DNA of 64,000 bases from Parvularcula bermudensis HTCC2503 (GTDB taxonomy: Bacteria > Pseudomonadota > Alphaproteobacteria > Caulobacterales > Parvularculaceae), in the NCBI RefSeq assembly GCF_000152825.2, contig NC_014414.1, forward strand, positions 2,046,001-2,110,000, read 5' to 3'. A program made the translations under genes and the position numbers. Below the pieces are notes generated by a model, which worked only from the letters and a program-made list of their open reading frames with translations, did not search any database and was not told the origin of the DNA. Shown piece after piece: positions 29,152 through 39,969 of this stretch (position 1 is the first letter of the stretch; the number at the start of each line of letters is the position of its first letter).

Positions 29152-29259
29152 GACTTCCTTAGAGGGCCGCGCGGCGGGGCGCCGAGGTCGGGCCTTGAAC
29201 GGGGAACGGTTCTGGGCCTGTCGGCATGGTTCTTGCGTCTCATGCGTCGGGAGAAAACT

Positions 29260-29952
29260 ATGAGCCGGTTTCACTATATTGGCTGCGGGGTTCTGACCCT
29301 CTTGGCAGCCTGTGCCACCGATCAGGGGTCGGCCACGCCGGCCGTCACAGAGGTGCGAGCGCCCAAGGCAATGGAGCCAGGCGAAGGGCAGCAGGATTCC
29401 CCTGCGGCAGAGGCAAAGGCGCCGACCGATAAGTCTCAGCCCACGGCAGCGGTCACCGGTCTTGCCCCAGACGACGGACACACTGACGATACCCAGACTG
29501 ACGATACGCAGATTGACGATGCACAGACTGGCGACGAAGAGAGTGTCGTCTCGCCAGAGCGGGCAGCGGCCAACGCGGCCATTGCGGAGGTCAACCAATT
29601 GCGGGCGGCAACCGGCGCGCAGCCCCTGGTCTATGATCCTGATCTGACGGCCGTCGCTCGCCGCCATGTCGCCGATATGGCGGACCGGGAAGTTGTCACG
29701 ACGGAGGATGCCGAGGGACGGGGCCTCGACGGCCGCCTGACCGCAGCGGATGCACCGCGCGCCTATTCGGCGAGCCTCGTCGCCGGGGGCTATACGACCA
29801 TTACGGCCGCCCTGAAGGCGTGGCAAGACAATCCGGCCCAGATCACACGGCTGCTCGATCCGAAATTCGATCAAATCGGCTTTGCGGTGATCGAAGATCG
29901 GCAGTCACGTTATGGATTTTATATCGAAGCCATCGTCGCGTCGTCGGACTGA
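29260..29952 (+). CDS. CAP/SCP-domain lipoprotein
   Basis: About 230 residues. Lipoprotein signal M-S-R-F-H-Y-I-G-C-G-V-L-T-L-L-A-A-C with the acylated Cys at about 18. A low-complexity linker (residues 20-105) includes repeats of D-D-T-Q. The C-terminal CAP domain shows L-R-A-A-T-G-A-Q-P-L-V-Y-D-P-D-L and A-R-R-H-V-A-D-M. CAP proteins bind lipids, glycans or metals; the function here is unknown. The ATG at 29260 has GGGAGAAAA upstream. Convergent with murD2, with stops only 3 nt apart. Confidence 0.78.
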   Translation: MSRFHYIGCGVLTLLAACATDQGSATPAVTEVRAPKAMEPGEGQQDSPAAEAKAPTDKSQPTAAVTGLAPDDGHTDDTQTDDTQIDDAQTGDEESVVSPERAAANAAIAEVNQLRAATGAQPLVYDPDLTAVARRHVADMADREVVTTEDAEGRGLDGRLTAADAPRAYSASLVAGGYTTITAALKAWQDNPAQITRLLDPKFDQIGFAVIEDRQSRYGFYIEAIVASSD

Positions 29953-29954
29953 GC

Positions 29955-31265
29955 TTACGCGTCCAGCGCCGCCGCTCTGAACGCCGCCCCGCGCGCGACA
30001 TAGTCTGCATAGGGCGGCTCCGACGCGGCCGACGGGGAAAACAGGATTGTGGCGCCCTTGGGCGCGCTGCTCGTGACCCAGGCAAGGGCGCTCTCAAAGG
30101 TCCCCAAGGGCGTGAAGGCGACCCCTGCCGCGCGAAGACGAGGGGCCAGACGGTCTGCGATGCCCCCAAATATCCCTGTCGTGACACAATCATAATCCGC
30201 GAGGCTTGTCGCCAAGGGCGCAAAATCCTGTCCCCGATCCTGTCCCCCGACCAACAGGACGACCCGCCCCAGCACAGCGAACCGATCGATCGCATGGACC
30301 GTCGCCTCGGGGATCGTGGCAAGGGCATCGTTGACCCATATCCGTCCATCGTGACTGGCGACGATTTCCTGCCGGGCCGGCAACCCGCGATAGCGGCGAA
30401 CGGTGTCGATGAGAGCGTCGGTGAGGGGACGATCGGGCCATCGGCGTCGCGCCCATGCCGCCGCCGCCCTTAAGGCAAGGCGCAAGGGGTGGCTGGTAAA
30501 GGCCGAATTAATCTGTTGAGGGATCAAAAGCGCTTCTCCCCGCACGCTGAGCCCCTCTCCTTCCAGGGCGGCGTAGTGCTCAAAGGCGCCGACCGATAAG
30601 GGCAGGGCCGCTTCTTCGATAACAGCCTTTGGGGCCAGTCCTGGAATCGGCGGCCGGAGGCCGAAGGGGCGGAGCTTTGCTGCACGATAGGCGGCCTCGC
30701 TTCCGTGCCAGGGGGTGTGATCGCGAAACAGGGAGGTCACCATGTGAGTGTAGGGCCCCGCCGGGACATCGTGCAGCATATAGGAGCTGACCTCCACCAC
30801 GGGATAATCGAGGGCGATGGCGGTCTCGCTCAGAACCGGGGTCCCAATATTGCCGAAGGCGCCAGCCTTTTCCCCCAAGGCGGTGAGGAGATCCGTCAAA
30901 AGGGCGGTGGTCGTACTTTTCCCTTTCGTCCCGGTGATCGTCACCGTGCCCTCGGGGGCTTCGCTTGCAAGCCAATAGCCGGTCGGCGTCGTGATCAATC
31001 GGTCCGCCGCCAAGCCGCGCTCCACCAGGGGATGGGTCGGGGGGACGCCCGGCGATCTGAGAATGAGGTCGGCCTTCTCCAGCCATTTGGCGGCCTCGCT
31101 CTCCCCGACCCAGTGGGCCTTGGGGGAATGGGCGATCTCGGCGGGTGGCGGGGTGCCCGGCGCGCGCTGGTCGACGACAACAATTTCACGCCCTTGACCA
31201 AGAAAGTGCCGCGCCGCCGCCTTCCCCTCGACGCCAAGCCCAATCAGCAGGACCGGACCGCTCAC
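29955..31265 (-). CDS. murD2: Mur ligase MurD2: UDP-MurNAc-L-Ala L-glutamate ligase (predicted)
   Basis: 436 residues from the GTG at 31265. N-terminal Rossmann-like domain (L-L-I-G-L-G-V-E-G-K-A-A), central ATPase with G-T-K-G-K-S-T at 112-118, and a C-terminal domain. It is MurD-like but smaller and divergent. The reason to call it MurD2 is its partner: the murL-type gene directly upstream overlaps it by 4 nt (GTGA). In Xanthomonas the pair ligates L-Glu to UDP-MurNAc-L-Ala and then epimerises it to D-Glu, replacing MurD plus glutamate racemase. Substrate specificity is inferred from linkage, not from residues. Confidence 0.78.
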   Translation of the reverse strand: MSGPVLLIGLGVEGKAAARHFLGQGREIVVVDQRAPGTPPPAEIAHSPKAHWVGESEAAKWLEKADLILRSPGVPPTHPLVERGLAADRLITTPTGYWLASEAPEGTVTITGTKGKSTTTALLTDLLTALGEKAGAFGNIGTPVLSETAIALDYPVVEVSSYMLHDVPAGPYTHMVTSLFRDHTPWHGSEAAYRAAKLRPFGLRPPIPGLAPKAVIEEAALPLSVGAFEHYAALEGEGLSVRGEALLIPQQINSAFTSHPLRLALRAAAAWARRRWPDRPLTDALIDTVRRYRGLPARQEIVASHDGRIWVNDALATIPEATVHAIDRFAVLGRVVLLVGGQDRGQDFAPLATSLADYDCVTTGIFGGIADRLAPRLRAAGVAFTPLGTFESALAWVTSSAPKGATILFSPSAASEPPYADYVARGAAFRAAALDA

Positions 31266-32626
31266 AACGCGCCTCCTTCGGCGGTGGGGCGATAGGTCCG
31301 CGGCAGGGTCGGGCTCGCAACGGGCCGAAGACACGCGTCGACCAGGGCGTCGAGCTCGGCGGGGTCTTGAAGACCGGTAAGGCGCGGCGCGAAGTGCTGC
31401 ACCGCCATCGTCCGCGAGAGATCCTCCCGTCGCGCGGCCAGACCAAGGGCAGCACGACATTCGGCGATGGTCCCCACACATTCCCAAGGTTTATGGTCGC
31501 TCAGCCCAAGGAGCTGGGCGTAGAACGGCTGGAGGGCGTCAAGGTCGAGAAACTGGCGTCCAAAGGCGATCCGGTTTTCCGTTTCGGACAGAAAGGGGGC
31601 GAGAATGAGCGAGGTGAAGGCGCATTTCGGGCACGCTCCACACCAGCGCTGGGTGGCGTCCCCCGCCATGCGAAAATTGCGATTGCAACTTGTGAAGCGG
31701 GGAAACGCCTCGGTCTCGGCGGCAAAAGCGCGCCCGATCCAAAGCTCCGAATAGGGACGGAGGATCGAGAAGACCGCCGGCGCTGCGGCCCCGGCCTCCG
31801 CGATGGCTTCTTGCAAGATGAGTTCGAAGGCGGAGGATTTGGAATATTGGTGATTGGCGGTGATCCCGTCCTCAAGCACCATGGTTGGCTCATCCGCCGA
31901 GCGTTCATTGGCAAAGATGACTTCACGATTGCCGTCAAGCACGGCCTGGAGGGCAAGACAGAGGGCATTGATCGCGGTGATCGGAATATGCCCGTTAAAC
32001 CCTAGGGGGGTTCGTGCCGAGAGACGCGGATCGAGCCGCCGCCAGATGAAGATGGGGGCCGTGGGGGCCGTGGCGATTAACACATCGCGTACCGCCGGGG
32101 ACAGCACCACCGAGGCCAGTCGGCAGGGCACTCCATGCTTGGCCATCAGCCGCCGGGCAACATAGGAATCTTTTCCGCCACCAAAGGCGACCAGGGCGCT
32201 CGACCTTGCGCGCTGGTCTTTCGACGGGGCCGCTATCTGGGGAGGGCGGGGCCCTGTGTCCTCAACCAAGGTGAGGTCGTCGGGGAAGGGAAGCCCTGCC
32301 CTGACGCGGAACTCCGCCAATCCTTCACCATATAGCGCGGCGGCGAGGCGGGACGCCGCGGGGCCGCCGGGCGGGAGGCTCAATTGAGGACTGGCCGCGA
32401 GCTTATAATAGCTCGCCCCAAGGGCGATGGTGAGCAGGGTCAGGAGGGCAGGGGCCTCCGCCGCTGCGGCGGCGACAGGGCGGGTCGCTTCGGGAAACCG
32501 TACGCCCTCGGTAAAGTGTCCATGCCGGTCGCAATAAAAATCCGCCAGCACTTGTCGGTCGTCAGTGGGGTCGAGCCGCCACCCAAGGATATCAAATCGG
32601 GCGCCGCGCAGCGGGGATGAGGTCAT
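31262..32626 (-). CDS. murL: UDP-MurNAc-L-Ala-L-Glu epimerase MurL (predicted)
   Basis: 454 residues from the ATG at 32626. A PP-loop-like F-G-G-G-K-D-S at 148-154 indicates ATP activation of a carboxylate, as in the ATP-pyrophosphatase fold. The Cys-rich W-C-G-A-C-P-K-C-A-F near residue 325 is a second landmark. These, the length, and tight coupling to a MurD-like ligase fit MurL of Xanthomonas, which epimerises the terminal L-Glu of UDP-MurNAc-L-Ala-L-Glu. No clear ribosome site precedes this ATG; the frame continues upstream to an ATG at 32692 and beyond. Confidence 0.75.
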   Translation of the reverse strand: MTSSPLRGARFDILGWRLDPTDDRQVLADFYCDRHGHFTEGVRFPEATRPVAAAAAEAPALLTLLTIALGASYYKLAASPQLSLPPGGPAASRLAAALYGEGLAEFRVRAGLPFPDDLTLVEDTGPRPPQIAAPSKDQRARSSALVAFGGGKDSYVARRLMAKHGVPCRLASVVLSPAVRDVLIATAPTAPIFIWRRLDPRLSARTPLGFNGHIPITAINALCLALQAVLDGNREVIFANERSADEPTMVLEDGITANHQYSKSSAFELILQEAIAEAGAAAPAVFSILRPYSELWIGRAFAAETEAFPRFTSCNRNFRMAGDATQRWCGACPKCAFTSLILAPFLSETENRIAFGRQFLDLDALQPFYAQLLGLSDHKPWECVGTIAECRAALGLAARREDLSRTMAVQHFAPRLTGLQDPAELDALVDACLRPVASPTLPRTYRPTAEGGAL

Positions 32627-35504: not shown

Positions 35505-35613
35505 CGGAAGCTCCTCTTCCGTTCCGTATCGGCCCGCTCTTTACGAATGACAACAAATCGTGTGTTTCCTCGACCGGCGGATCGGCAACAATGGTCCCAT
35601 CGAGGAGGTCGGT

Positions 35614-36963
35614 ATGGGCGCGCTTGCCTGCATTATTTTGGCCGCGGGCCACGGAACGCGGATGAAATCCGCCCGACCGAAGGTGCTGCATACTATCGGC
35701 CACCGGCCCATGCTTCACCATGTCATGGCCCTGGGGCAGGCCTTGGGGGCGGATCGCCAGACCGTTGTCGTCGGCAGTGGCGCCGAGGCCGTGGCCGATG
35801 CGGCACGGGCATTCGATAGTGAGGCCGCCATCGCCGTTCAGGATCCGCCGCAAGGCACCGGGCATGCCGTACAGATGGCCTTGCCGAGTCTTGAAGGCTT
35901 TGAGGGGACGGTGCTCGTGCTTTATGCGGATACCCCCCTTTTGACCCCTCAAACCCTGTCGAGGCTGATTGCCGAGATCGAGGGGGGGGCGGCGGTCAGT
36001 GTACTGGGGTTCGAGCCCGCCGATCCGGGCGCTTATGGCCGGTTGATCCGGCGACCCAATGGGGATCTCGACCGGATTGTCGAGTATAAGGACGCCACTG
36101 AGACGGAGCGGGCGAGCCGCCTCTGCAATGCCGGTCTGATGGCCGTGAACGCTGTAAGCCTCAGGCACCATCTCCCCTCGCTGTCGAACGATAATGCGCA
36201 GAAGGAGTATTATCTGACGGACCTTCCCCAGATGGCCGTGGCTGCGGGAGGGCGGGCCGCCATCGTGCTTGCCGCATCCGAGGAAACCCAAGGGGTGAAT
36301 AACCGGGCGGAGCTTGCCGCCGCCGAGGCCACGTTTCAGCGGCGCCTTCGGCTGGAGATGATGCTGGCGGGCGTGACCCTTGAAGACCCGGACAGTACCT
36401 ATTTCGCCTTCGACACGCAGATTGCCGAAGACGTCACGGTGGCGCCGCATGTTGTCTTCGGTCCCGGGGTGCGCATCGCCGCGAATGTACGGATCGAAGC
36501 GTTCAGCCATATCGAAGGGGCGGTGATCGAGGAGGGGGCGGTGGTCGGTCCCTTTGCGCGGTTGCGTCCGGGCACCTCGGTCGGCGCCGCAGCGCGGGTC
36601 GGCAATTTCGTCGAGACCAAGAACACAAGCCTCGGGCGCGGGGCCAAAGCAAGCCACCTGACCTATCTCGGCGATGCGGAGATTGGGGCGGGAAGCAATA
36701 TCGGTGCGGGGACGATTACCTGTAATTACGATGGCTACGAAAAGCATCGTACTCTGATCGGCGAGAATTGCTTTGTGGGATCGAATTCTTCTTTGGTCGC
36801 GCCGGTGACGATTGGGGCGGGGGCCTATATCGGTTCCGGCTCCGTCATTACAAAGACGGTCGAGCCGGACAGTCTTGCCGTGGCGAGGGGGCGCCAGCTG
36901 AGCAAGGCAGGGTGGGCGGCCTCCTACAAAGGGCGCATGGAAACGAAAAAGCGAGAAAGCTGA
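35614..36963 (+). CDS. glmU: Bifunctional N-acetylglucosamine-1-phosphate uridyltransferase / acetyltransferase
   Basis: 449 residues. N-terminal pyrophosphorylase L-A-A-G-H-G-T-R-M-K-S and a C-terminal left-handed beta-helix of hexapeptide repeats (about 250-430) that trimerises. Together these make UDP-GlcNAc from GlcN-1-P. GAGGAGG lies 5 nt before the ATG at 35614; open frame upstream has no homology. The next gene, glmS, starts 6 nt after the stop, so glmU-glmS make UDP-GlcNAc together and feed peptidoglycan, lipid A (lpxC is close) and surface polysaccharide. Confidence 0.97.
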   Translation: MGALACIILAAGHGTRMKSARPKVLHTIGHRPMLHHVMALGQALGADRQTVVVGSGAEAVADAARAFDSEAAIAVQDPPQGTGHAVQMALPSLEGFEGTVLVLYADTPLLTPQTLSRLIAEIEGGAAVSVLGFEPADPGAYGRLIRRPNGDLDRIVEYKDATETERASRLCNAGLMAVNAVSLRHHLPSLSNDNAQKEYYLTDLPQMAVAAGGRAAIVLAASEETQGVNNRAELAAAEATFQRRLRLEMMLAGVTLEDPDSTYFAFDTQIAEDVTVAPHVVFGPGVRIAANVRIEAFSHIEGAVIEEGAVVGPFARLRPGTSVGAAARVGNFVETKNTSLGRGAKASHLTYLGDAEIGAGSNIGAGTITCNYDGYEKHRTLIGENCFVGSNSSLVAPVTIGAGAYIGSGSVITKTVEPDSLAVARGRQLSKAGWAASYKGRMETKKRES

Positions 36964-36969
36964 GGCGAT

Positions 36970-38802
36970 ATGTGCGGGATTGTCGGCGTCATTGGGCTCG
37001 AAGATGCAGCAGGGGCCTTGCTTGAAGGATTGGCGCGTCTTGAATATCGCGGCTACGACTCGGCGGGGGTTGCTGTCCTCAATGACGACGGGATCATCCA
37101 TCGGCGGCGCGCGACCGGCAAGCTTGCCGCCCTGCGGGAAAAGATGGCCGCAGGGCCATTGGAGGGCGATCGTGGGATCGGCCATACCCGATGGGCAACC
37201 CATGGACGCCCCTCAGAGGAGAATGCCCACCCCCATTTCGGCCAGGGCGTAGCAGTGGTGCATAATGGCATCATCGAGAATTTCGCGACTTTACGTCGTG
37301 AGCTGATCGAGAAGGGGGAGACATTCCAGTCCGATACCGACACCGAAGTGATCGCCAAATGGATTGGTCATGATATTGCCGCGGGAAAGGACCCCAAGAC
37401 GAGCTTTGCCGATGCCGTCAGTCGTCTCCAGGGCGCCTATGCCCTGGCCGTGATGGTCGAGGCCGACCCCGACCACCTCTATTTTGCCCGGCGCGGCTCC
37501 CCCCTCGCCATAGGACGCACCGAAGAGGCGATGTTTATCGGCTCTGACTCGCAGGCATTGGCGCCGTTTACCCGCTATGTCACGTATCTCGCCGATGGTG
37601 ATTGGGGATGGATCGACCGGGGACGGATGACCGTGTTCGGTGCCGATGGCGCTCCGGTTCAGCGGGAGGAGAAGATCTCCTCCGCAAGTGCCGCGATCGT
37701 CGAAAAGGGCGAATATCGGCATTTCATGGCGAAGGAGATCCATCAGCAGCCGGAAGTCGTCGGTCGGGCCCTTACAGGCTATATCGACGCCGTTGAAGGG
37801 CGGACGGTACCGATCGAAGACGAAATCGATTTTGCCGCCATCGACCGTCTCCTGATCTCTGCCTGCGGCACCGCCTATTATGCCGGCTTAGTGGCAAAAT
37901 ATTGGTTTGAGACCTATGCGCGCCTTCCGGTCGAGACCGACATCGCCTCGGAATTGCGCTATCGCGATGTGGTCTATCCTGAGAAGGGCGCCGCGCTGTT
38001 CATTTCCCAGTCGGGGGAAACGGCCGATACCCTCGCCGCCTTACGCGAAGCGAAAGCCAAAGGCTGCCATATCGGCGGGGTCGTCAATGTCCCGGAAAGC
38101 ACCATCGCGCGGGAAGCCGATTGTCTTTATCCAATTCAGGCCGGGCCCGAGATTGGCGTTGCCTCCACCAAGGCCTTTACCTGCCAATTGGCCAGCCTCG
38201 CATCGATTGTCGTCCGGGCCGGGGTGGCACGCGGGGTGATCGCCCCTGACGAAGAGGTGCGCCTGTGCCGGGTGCTGCTCGAAGCGCCGCGTCAGCTCGC
38301 CGCGATTTTGACGCAAGAGGCGTCGATTGCGGCGGTGGCCGATCACGTCGCGGGGGCGCGGGATGTCCTCTATCTTGGCCGTGGCACCTCCTATCCCATC
38401 GCCTTGGAAGGAGCGTTAAAGTTGAAGGAAATCAGCTACATTCACGCGGAAGGCTATGCCGCGGGTGAGCTGAAACACGGTCCGATCGCGCTGATTGACG
38501 AGCGGGTGCCGGTGATCGTCATTGCGCCGGAGGATCGGCATTTCGAGAAGACCCTGTCCAATATGCAGGAGGTGTTGGCCCGGGGCGGGCGGTGCATCCT
38601 GTTATCGACGGCGGCGGGGGTCGCAAGGGCCCAGGAAGGGGGAGATCTGACCGCAGCCATCACCTTGCCGGCGATCGATCCACTGATCGCCCCGATCCTT
38701 TACGCCGTCCCCATTCAGCTCATGGCCTATCACGCCGCCGTGATCAAAGGCACCGATGTTGACCAACCCCGCAATCTCGCAAAGTCCGTTACTGTAGAAT
38801 AG
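36970..38802 (+). CDS. glmS: Glutamine--fructose-6-phosphate aminotransferase
   Basis: 610 residues. The N-terminal nucleophile is Cys2 (M-C-G-I-V-G), with the glutaminase domain to about 240 and two SIS isomerase domains (S-Q-S-G-E-T, S-T-K-A-F-T-C-Q) after it. The C-terminus K-S-V-T-V-E is the usual closing tail. It makes glucosamine-6-phosphate, the first committed step to UDP-GlcNAc. No glmS ribozyme sequence is seen in the short 6-nt leader to glmU. Confidence 0.97.
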   Translation: MCGIVGVIGLEDAAGALLEGLARLEYRGYDSAGVAVLNDDGIIHRRRATGKLAALREKMAAGPLEGDRGIGHTRWATHGRPSEENAHPHFGQGVAVVHNGIIENFATLRRELIEKGETFQSDTDTEVIAKWIGHDIAAGKDPKTSFADAVSRLQGAYALAVMVEADPDHLYFARRGSPLAIGRTEEAMFIGSDSQALAPFTRYVTYLADGDWGWIDRGRMTVFGADGAPVQREEKISSASAAIVEKGEYRHFMAKEIHQQPEVVGRALTGYIDAVEGRTVPIEDEIDFAAIDRLLISACGTAYYAGLVAKYWFETYARLPVETDIASELRYRDVVYPEKGAALFISQSGETADTLAALREAKAKGCHIGGVVNVPESTIAREADCLYPIQAGPEIGVASTKAFTCQLASLASIVVRAGVARGVIAPDEEVRLCRVLLEAPRQLAAILTQEASIAAVADHVAGARDVLYLGRGTSYPIALEGALKLKEISYIHAEGYAAGELKHGPIALIDERVPVIVIAPEDRHFEKTLSNMQEVLARGGRCILLSTAAGVARAQEGGDLTAAITLPAIDPLIAPILYAVPIQLMAYHAAVIKGTDVDQPRNLAKSVTVE

Positions 38803-39003
38803 ATCAATAATTTCAATAACATATAGCGTGGTTACAGGCCGTAACATAGCGTTATTTCAAGGTCTGGCGAGTCATCCCCATAACAATATCAAGATGGTTG
38901 TCGGCGATGGGCTTCGGCCTTTTCGCGCGAATTGTTTTGGCGGTGATGGCCGTTGGAAATCAGTGCCTGTGTCAAGGCACCCCTGCGGGGACGGGAGGCA
39001 GTG

Positions 39004-39969
39004 ATGGCCAAGAATGGCGATTTTATCGGGATGGCGAGAACCCTGAAAGGGCGTCTCGTGCTCACTGGCATCGGGCTTCATTCCGGGCAGTCGGTGACCA
39101 TGACCCTGTGGCCGGCCCCCCTCGCCACGGGGCTGCTGTTTCGCCGTCGTGATTTGATGGAAGGCGTCAGCGCCGAAAGCCAGGCGGCGACCCTCGACCG
39201 TGTCACGATCAAAGCGCATCCTGCATCGGTCAGTGCGACGACCCTTGGGACTGTGATTTCCAATCGCTTTGGGGTCAGTGTCTCAACGGTGGAGCATATT
39301 CTCGCAGCCCTTTCCGGTGCTGGCATCGATCACGCGCTCATCGATGTCGATGGCCCCGAAGTGCCGATCATGGATGGCAGCGCGGCGCCCTTTTCCCAGG
39401 CGATCGCCCAGACCGGGACGCGGTCTCTCGGCGCCGCTCGGGATTATTGGCGGCTCAATCGCCCCTTGATGGTCAAAAAGGGCGGTAGCCTGATTGCGGC
39501 GATGCCTCTCGATCCCGAAGAGACACCTCGCCTCGCGCTCGATGTGACGGTCGACTATGCCGATGCCGCGATCGGACGGCAGAGCCTCTCCCTCGATCCA
39601 GCTCACGGCTTGTTCAACGATGAACTCGCCAATGCACGGACCTTTTGTCATTTCAAGGATGTCGAAGCGATGCGCGCTCAGGGGTTGGCCCTTGGCGGCT
39701 CCCTCGATAATGCCATCGTGGTCGACAATGGCTCGATCCTGAATGAGGGGGGGGTGCGACGGGATCGGGAGTTCGTTCGCCATAAGGCGCTCGACCTCAT
39801 CGGCGACTTGCACCTTCTCGGCGCGCCGCTGGCGGCGCGCTTGGTGGCGATGAAGCCGGGGCATGACATCAATACGCAATTCGCCAAGCAGGTGCTCGAT
39901 GAGGGCGCTGTGACCTTGGCACAGGCCCACGACACCGCCGCGGTTTCGGCACGGGCGGTGGGCGCTTGA
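39004..39969 (+). CDS. lpxC: UDP-3-O-acyl-N-acetylglucosamine deacetylase
   Basis: 321 residues. LpxC is the committed zinc step of lipid A synthesis. The V-E-H-I-L-A-A-L-S-G His and the H-K-A-L-D-L-I-G-D His/Asp are the metal ligands, and A-R-T-F-C-H-F is conserved. The ATG at 39004 has GGGAGG upstream and starts immediately before homology; an ATG at 38953 adds 17 residues without homology. LpxC in many alphaproteobacteria is next to cell-division genes, but here it is followed by bamD. Confidence 0.95.
   Translation: MAKNGDFIGMARTLKGRLVLTGIGLHSGQSVTMTLWPAPLATGLLFRRRDLMEGVSAESQAATLDRVTIKAHPASVSATTLGTVISNRFGVSVSTVEHILAALSGAGIDHALIDVDGPEVPIMDGSAAPFSQAIAQTGTRSLGAARDYWRLNRPLMVKKGGSLIAAMPLDPEETPRLALDVTVDYADAAIGRQSLSLDPAHGLFNDELANARTFCHFKDVEAMRAQGLALGGSLDNAIVVDNGSILNEGGVRRDREFVRHKALDLIGDLHLLGAPLAARLVAMKPGHDINTQFAKQVLDEGAVTLAQAHDTAAVSARAVGA

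Follow-up and report, generated by a model that had tools for sequence, protein, structure and literature searches.

The stretch of DNA analysed here (the window) comprises 64,000 nucleotides of Parvularcula bermudensis HTCC2503 (contig NC_014414.1, positions 2,046,001 to 2,110,000). Its minus strand carries two overlapping genes, murL and murD2, which are the subject of this analysis; their coordinates and principal features are as follows.

31262..32626, minus strand: MurL, 454 aa, ATG start, matching NF041275
32165..32182, minus strand: PP-loop-like motif GGGKDS, MurL residues 149-154, each residue invariant in 47/47 aligned MurLs
31622..31687, minus strand: four-cysteine cluster of MurL, C314-x14-C329-x2-C332-x2-C335, consistent by spacing with a QueC-type zinc site
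31262..31265, minus strand: GTGA overlap of 4 nt, MurL stop and MurD2 start
29955..31265, minus strand: murD2, a MurD-like ligase and candidate for L-Glu addition, 436 aa, GTG start, matching TIGR01087
30720..30722, minus strand: MurD2 Asp182, at the position of Escherichia coli Asp182 and Xanthomonas oryzae Glu197, canonical type
30321..30323, minus strand: MurD2 Leu315, at the position of E. coli Lys319
30234..30236, minus strand: MurD2 Arg344, at the position of E. coli Lys348 and X. oryzae Arg358, L-Glu type

On the minus strand the gene junction reads GCGTTGTGAGCGG, with the MurL stop codon TGA inside the GTGA that opens the ligase frame. Provided that GTG is the ligase start, the overlap is 4 nt, which suggests that murL and murD2 may be translationally coupled. 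The first-pass annotation of this DNA had described a PP-loop-like protein overlapping a MurD-like ligase by 4 nt, and this description was confirmed by family matches for both proteins: MurL matches the NCBIfam MurL profile NF041275 (E-value: 7.1e-84, 281.8 bits, residues 13-443 against profile positions 12-437 of 447) and the ligase matches the murD profile TIGR01087 (E-value: 3.3e-74, 250.6 bits, over the cut-off of 211.95). A Pfam search with MurL returned nothing at E-values up to 1. The two genes are commonly found together, as 80 of 88 MurL loci hold both MurL and MurD2 (72 on the same strand and eight on opposite strands) and eight are without MurD2. The opposite-strand loci are L121, L123, L124, L126, L127, L130, L133 and L135, five of which are labelled Oceanicaulis or Maricaulaceae.

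In X. oryzae, MurD2 and MurL have been characterized with AMP formation and one-way epimerisation (PMC8788868). The first-pass annotation had proposed that the same route operates in the organism of the window, and had pointed to murI and a canonical murD as the genes to look for. The genome is a single contig of 2,902,643 bases, and a search of the whole 2.9-Mb contig with the MurI profile TIGR00067 gave zero matches. Two class-IV aminotransferases match the D-amino-acid transaminase (Dat) profile TIGR01121 at 110.6 and 85.3 bits, and their nearest Protein Data Bank (PDB) entries are IlvE (E-value: 4.9e-89) and 4-amino-4-deoxychorismate lyase (E-value: 8.6e-24), respectively. By sequence the two proteins look IlvE-like and PabC-like, and a hidden Dat was rejected as the D-glutamate source of this genome on account of these nearest entries.

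A similar picture is obtained across the family (Parvularculaceae, 37 genomes). MurI was over cut-off in 0/37 genomes, with weak matches of 24-33 bits in six, so MurI was probably lost early in the family; among 24 genomes from other families of the order, it was over cut-off in 15 and without a match in three. MurL is present in 19/37 family genomes and in 0/24 of the others. Three complete-looking genomes of these other families (G040, G044 and G048) gave no match to either MurI or MurL. A strong Dat match (TIGR01121, 223-291 bits) was found in 18/37 family genomes, and the score did not exceed 161.3 bits in the family genomes with MurL. No family genome has both MurL and a strong Dat match, and none has neither. 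The only Dat protein tested of the 18 (L073) has D-amino-acid aminotransferase 3daa as its best PDB match (E-value: 5.1e-55). The family shows a clean two-way split without MurI, in which the D-glutamate source would be either Dat or MurD2-MurL. In 20 additional MurL genomes, taken from loci of the MurL survey, MurI was over cut-off in none, with weak matches in three cases, and Dat scores did not exceed 153.5 bits. The route had also been called uncommon for an alphaproteobacterium, and this held: a MurL match, in some cases partial, was found in 17 of 385 sampled Alphaproteobacteria, the genome studied here included. In the order of Wenzhouxiangella MurL is near-universal (79/81). One family genome, G007, combines a strong Dat match with an inactive MurD in its division and cell wall (dcw) cluster and has no MurL match; at 5.4 Mb and 6% contamination, it is probably a mixed genome.

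The ligase of the window can be compared with MurD enzymes of known specificity. In X. oryzae MurD2, E197 and R358 (E. coli D182 and K348) are determinants for L-Glu; K319T makes E. coli MurD accept L-Glu, and in X. oryzae MurD2 the single change E197D is enough to alter stereospecificity (PMC8788868). In a table of 97 aligned MurD2 rows (some genomes appearing twice), Arg occupies position 348 in 94/94 rows with a residue at that place, and Leu or Ile occupies position 319 in 92/94; the window protein has Arg and Leu. Position 182 is Glu in 82/97 rows and Asp in 15/97. A further residue table leaves out the MurD2s of G020, split over contigs, and of G016. The catalytic residues K115, E157, H183, K198, R302 and D317 are kept in the window MurD2. 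In a FastTree phylogeny with midpoint root, the window ligase falls in a clade that holds 28/28 sampled MurD2s (support 1.0) and is separate from the dcw MurDs. A MurL of 338.5 bits and a MurD2-like ligase also occur in a Candidatus Roizmanbacteria metagenome-assembled genome (MAG) of 0.7 Mb (L161), in which Thr aligns at position 183 of the ligase and His lies one place further on.

Several observations weigh against assigning the pair to this route. MurL misses the NF041275 cut-off of 700 and is a MurL homologue outside that Xanthomonadales equivalog; NF041275 is tuned to Xanthomonadales, and six further MurLs are also below 700 (Geodermatophilus 313.6, Blastococcus 294.0, Oceanicaulis 273.9, Roizmanbacteria 338.5, Wenzhouxiangella 481.8 and Woodsholea 356.6). 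With Asp182, the window MurD2 lacks the Glu197 of X. oryzae MurD2 and is canonical-MurD-like at this position. As Asp182-bearing ligases also occur near other MurLs, we treated position 182 as a variable site that does not exclude the protein from MurD2. The 223-bit Dat line was set after the data had been seen, just one of the 18 strong-Dat genomes passes the TIGR01121 cut-off of 277.45, and part of the 37 family genomes are incomplete (66 to 89%). By its sequence the window MurD2 is a putative L-Glu ligase. Based on the absence of a MurI match, the nature of the Dat-like candidates and the mutual exclusion of MurL and Dat in the family, the route proposed at first pass is supported, and the murL-murD2 pair very probably represents the MurD2-MurL bypass of D-glutamate supply, a known but rare route in which L-glutamate would first be joined to the cell wall precursor and then inverted to the D form. 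The route is not new to Parvularcula, since PMC8788868 already lists this genus with Devosia and Pelagibacterium among the Alphaproteobacteria having the genes.

The canonical murD was sought in the dcw cluster, which lies outside the window. The cluster (L037) is arranged ftsI-murE-murF-mraY-[P0003]-ftsW-murG-murC-murB-ddl, with most gene names read from sequence, and it holds a single frame at the usual place of murD:

L037:11133-12485 (C1:1941132-1942484, outside the window), between mraY and ftsW: P0003, a decayed MurD homologue of 450 aa

P0003 scores 117.3 bits against TIGR01087, missing the cut-off of 211.95, and has no Pfam match at 0.001. It scores up to 255 bits against the canonical dcw MurDs of Dat genomes and at most 28 against any MurD2 found. 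All 37/37 dcw proteins fall on one side of the FastTree phylogeny (support 0.852), with E. coli MurD on the MurD2 side. To describe residue loss we used a set of 13 catalytic or ligand residues of MurD in E. coli numbering. P0003 has lost 9/13 and is on this account not a canonical murD; at Lys198, His183, Asp182, Lys319 and Lys348 it has L, R, R, Y and S, which are not the residues of a functional MurD.

This decay is shared within the family. The canonical dcw MurDs of 15 Dat genomes keep 13/13 residues in 14 cases and 12/13 in one. A MurD-derived dcw frame is present in 16/19 MurL family genomes (whole in 15/16, as the G025 copy is cut by a contig end), and these copies together with that of G007 (17 proteins) keep 4 to 7 of the 13 residues. 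D182, K319 and K348 are lost in 17/17, H183 in 16/17 and K198 in 15/17 (K198 reads as Lys in G003 and G005, where the alignment is gappy), while 17/17 retain the P-loop Lys and D317 and 15/17 retain R302. The frame was rejected as a working MurD, as most catalytic residues are replaced, and as a sequencing error of a single genome, as it is seen in 16/19 MurL genomes. The three other MurL family genomes gave no dcw MurD homologue; in G022 (L098) mraY is followed by ftsW alone. Nor was a dcw MurD evident in two incomplete genomes, G001 (89% complete) and G017 (78% complete). All 19/19 MurL family genomes lack Dat, and in each of them the dcw MurD is either missing or catalytically decayed. G013, with 7/13 residues left and 309 bits, looks like a case of recent loss. 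In a further locus (L099, G030:C79:1-11500), approximately 5.8 kb between mraY and ftsW hold no murD homologue and include a frame of 721 aa that matches nothing in the dcw set.

Woodsholea, Alkalicaulis and Oceanicaulis, which are Maricaulaceae and lie outside the family, show other states. Just 0 or 1/13 residues are left in the dcw frames of the Alkalicaulis group, made up of Alkalicaulis, Maricaulaceae bacterium EIL42A08 and two alphaproteobacterial MAGs grouping with these, and no dcw MurD frame was found in two Oceanicaulis genomes (L223 and L224) and one MAG (L225). In 12 other alphaproteobacterial MurL genomes, a MurD neighbours MurL (with a split over contigs in G208), and the search, which a strongly decayed copy could escape, gave no further MurD match above 117 bits. 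In Woodsholea (L218), which carries both MurL and MurD2 and gave neither a MurI match nor a strong Dat match, the dcw MurD nevertheless keeps 13/13 residues. This intact dcw MurD is left unexplained by a simple order of events and counts against such an order; Woodsholea is perhaps at a stage before dcw MurD loss.

Selection on the dcw protein was estimated as the ratio of nonsynonymous to synonymous substitution rates (dN/dS; Nei-Gojobori with bootstrap). In the pair G033-G015 the ratio is 0.064 (0.039-0.094) for the dcw protein, 0.053 for MurD2 and 0.095 for MurL, and neighbouring genes give 0.035 (murC), 0.019 (mraY), 0.077 (murF) and 0.124 (murG). In the pair G012-G020 it is 0.067 (0.040-0.095) for the dcw protein, 0.057 for MurD2 (203 codons only) and 0.145 for MurL; in G002-G008 the values are 0.336, 0.377 and 0.339, respectively. 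Strong constraint is less evident elsewhere. Five more distant Parvularcula pairs, several with dS near saturation, give 0.20 to 0.41 for the dcw protein and 0.21 to 0.38 for MurD2, the dcw values exceeding those of murC (0.13-0.20) and mraY (0.09-0.14); in G009-G003 the dcw value exceeds that of MurD2. In the Alkalicaulis group the dcw ratio is 0.41-0.69 over six pairs, with upper bounds to 0.83. The inactive dcw protein is constrained about as tightly as MurD2 in the family and relaxed in the Alkalicaulis group. Open-frame length was not taken as evidence of selection, since in these GC-rich loci the opposite strand also holds unmatched frames longer than 400 aa.

The dcw protein may be retained for a structural role or for a new activity; retention through coupling alone is harder to square with the dN/dS values. 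Under the last explanation, which we consider possible but unlikely, the frame is functionless as a protein and stays open because, with mraY-murD-ftsW-murG translationally coupled, a stop in it would have polar effects on essential genes. The spacing in the genome studied here is consistent with this (12 nt from mraY to the dcw frame and 1 nt from its stop to the ftsW ATG), as are the loss of the gene in G022 and the two Oceanicaulis genomes and its fast evolution in Alkalicaulis and three related genomes. However, an open frame alone does not hold dN/dS to 0.064 and 0.067, near the MurD2 values, and does not account for a P-loop Lys and D317 kept in every family copy. These retained residues, with R302 and the strong purifying selection in two close pairs, could instead point to a dcw copy that gained a new catalytic function, such as that of another ligase. 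We regard this as improbable: the widespread loss of H183 and K198 comes with lineage-specific replacements, not with one new conserved set, and the copies of the Alkalicaulis group have lost even the P-loop Lys.

MurL itself was compared using two alignments, A1 with 18 of the 19 family MurLs (G016, cut at a contig end, was left out) and A2 with 47 MurLs (that of the window and 46 of 80 survey loci). Cys 314, 329, 332 and 335 are invariant in 47/47 MurLs, and residues 314-335 of the window protein read C-x14-C-G-A-C-P-K-C. An AlphaFold2 model made with the 47-member alignment has a predicted local distance difference test score of 92.7 and a predicted template modelling (TM) score of 0.93. 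When this model was compared with the PDB using Foldseek, four chains matched at E-values of 0.001 or below and all belong to the QueC family (QatC 9y01 and 9y02, and QueC 3bl5 twice), with best E-values of 1.3e-5 for QatC and 2.4e-4 for QueC; QueC 2pg3 followed at 0.0015 and Cap9 lower down (E-value: 0.019, probability 0.99). The QueC motifs are SGGxDS and C(x)8CxxCxxC, besides which YxQxHxxE, VPxRN and YPDC are named (PMC13329287), and the zinc ligands of QatC are C334, C354, C357 and C360 (PMC13279940). The C-x14-C-x2-C-x2-C of MurL fits a predicted zinc cluster of the QueC/QatC kind. Such a fold also fits the reported AMP formation.

These likenesses are tempered by the Foldseek matches from rank 6 down, which mix unrelated folds, and by moderate TM-scores (QatC 0.38-0.41, among them 0.38 by query with 0.40 by target; QueC 0.29-0.32 by query and about 0.60 by target). 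The relation between MurL and QueC is visible only via predicted structure: PF06508 (QueC) matched 0/47 MurLs at E-values up to 1, Pfam and PADLOC searches gave no QueC or QatC match for MurL, and phmmer of the window MurL against the PDB gave chance matches alone (E-values: 0.98 and 1.4). A 47-member MurL profile matched TtuA in the PDB (E-value: 0.002) in the PP-loop region only. At first pass, a better alignment to QueC-type enzymes had been named as an outcome that would refute the route. By sequence the protein is MurL, with no Pfam QueC match in the 47 MurLs, whereas its predicted fold is QueC-like, and this comparison consequently does not separate the two cases. From the model, we infer that MurL is a divergent PP-loop enzyme of the QueC/QatC fold, less surely than we assign the route. 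PMC8788868 and PMC5808125 describe MurL as lacking known domains. We found no statement of MurL as QueC-like in the literature searched, in which most subscription papers were beyond reach, and the words MurL or epimerase were not among the matches listed for the two QueC papers (PMC13329287 and PMC13279940).

The QueC/QatC-like fold, together with the canonical Asp182, the TIGR01087 call over cut-off and a racemase search that covered MurI only, could favour an ordinary D-Glu-adding MurD supplied by an unrecognised racemase or a promiscuous alanine racemase, with the PP-loop protein having another job such as 7-deazaguanine or nucleotide chemistry, but this is very unlikely given the grouping of the ligase with 28/28 MurD2s apart from dcw MurDs, the MurD2-type K348R and K319L, the shared locus in 80/88 cases and the MurL/Dat mutual exclusion in 37/37 genomes.

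Under the MurD2-MurL reading, we infer the direction and specificity of the reaction, and adenylation by the window MurL, as follows. MurL would adenylate the alpha-carboxylate of the bound L-Glu, which would acidify the C-alpha proton and be followed by epimerisation and hydrolysis; adenylation in MurL is a hypothesis of PMC8788868. The bypass would take the place of Dat in part of the family, and the vertically inherited dcw MurD would then have lost catalysis and, in most of these genomes, stayed as a constrained protein. This protein may be a structural or ATP-binding member of a Mur/MraY/FtsW/MurG assembly; MurG has been described as a scaffold for the cytoplasmic steps (PMC6420597). We are more confident of the route than of the QueC-type mechanism or of any role of the dcw protein. 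We give about even chances to the joint proposal that the dcw MurD became a structural pseudoenzyme after takeover by MurD2-MurL and that MurL, an enzyme with the QueC fold, uses carboxyl adenylation to drive stereo-inversion and not amidation.

Other genes lie near the pair. A CAP/SCP-domain protein (PF00188, E-value: 2e-20; window 29233-29952, plus strand) matches the divisome-associated lipoprotein DalA weakly (37.7 bits against a cut-off of 200); its end and the MurD2 stop, on opposite strands, are 2 nt apart. On the plus strand are three further frames, of which glmU and lpxC have family matches over cut-off and the glmS-like frame between them is named from sequence only; they place genes for UDP-N-acetylglucosamine supply and lipid A close to murL-murD2.

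35560-36963, plus strand: glmU
36970-38802, plus strand: glmS-like frame
38953-39969, plus strand: lpxC

Beyond the known gene pair, this analysis adds a QueC-like model of MurL and a dcw MurD that is retained and constrained while catalytically decayed. A QueC-type fold would give MurL a testable active site (the PP-loop and four-Cys site) and a mechanism accounting for AMP, in an enzyme whose route has been discussed as a narrow-spectrum antibiotic target (PMC8788868). A constrained inactive dcw MurD would offer a natural experiment on whether, beyond catalysis, a Mur ligase contributes to the complex that makes the precursors; no report of a conserved non-catalytic dcw MurD pseudoenzyme was found among the literature matches listed.

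MurD2/MurL systems are known from X. oryzae (XOO_1320/XOO_1319), Micromonospora and Salinispora (PMC8788868, citing Feng et al. 2017). The Parvularcula pair resembles these in that MurL neighbours a MurD-like gene, MurI and any recognised D-amino-acid transaminase are missing, the ligase has a K348R-type Arg and lacks K319, and the MurL match is nearly full-length. It differs in its NF041275 score (281.8 against 700) and, relative to X. oryzae, in having Asp in place of Glu at X. oryzae position 197. Furthermore, Parvularcula keeps a decayed, constrained dcw MurD, whereas in Wenzhouxiangella and Geodermatophilus (one dcw region each) the mraY-ftsW interval contains no murD. With QueC, QatC and Cap9 (PF06508), MurL shares the fold of the predicted model, the GG-x-DS motif and ATP-dependent chemistry (putative for MurL), and like QueC and QatC it has a C-xn-C-x2-C-x2-C late in the domain, with n = 8 in QueC, 19 in QatC and 14 in MurL; unlike the QueC family, the 47 MurLs have no PF06508 match and the substrate is different. 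Compared with the canonical dcw MurD, the dcw frame of the MurL genomes is a vertical descendant by its place between mraY and ftsW and by the tree, but it keeps only 4 to 7 of the 13 residues in the MurL genomes of the family and G007, and 0 or 1 in Alkalicaulis and three related genomes.

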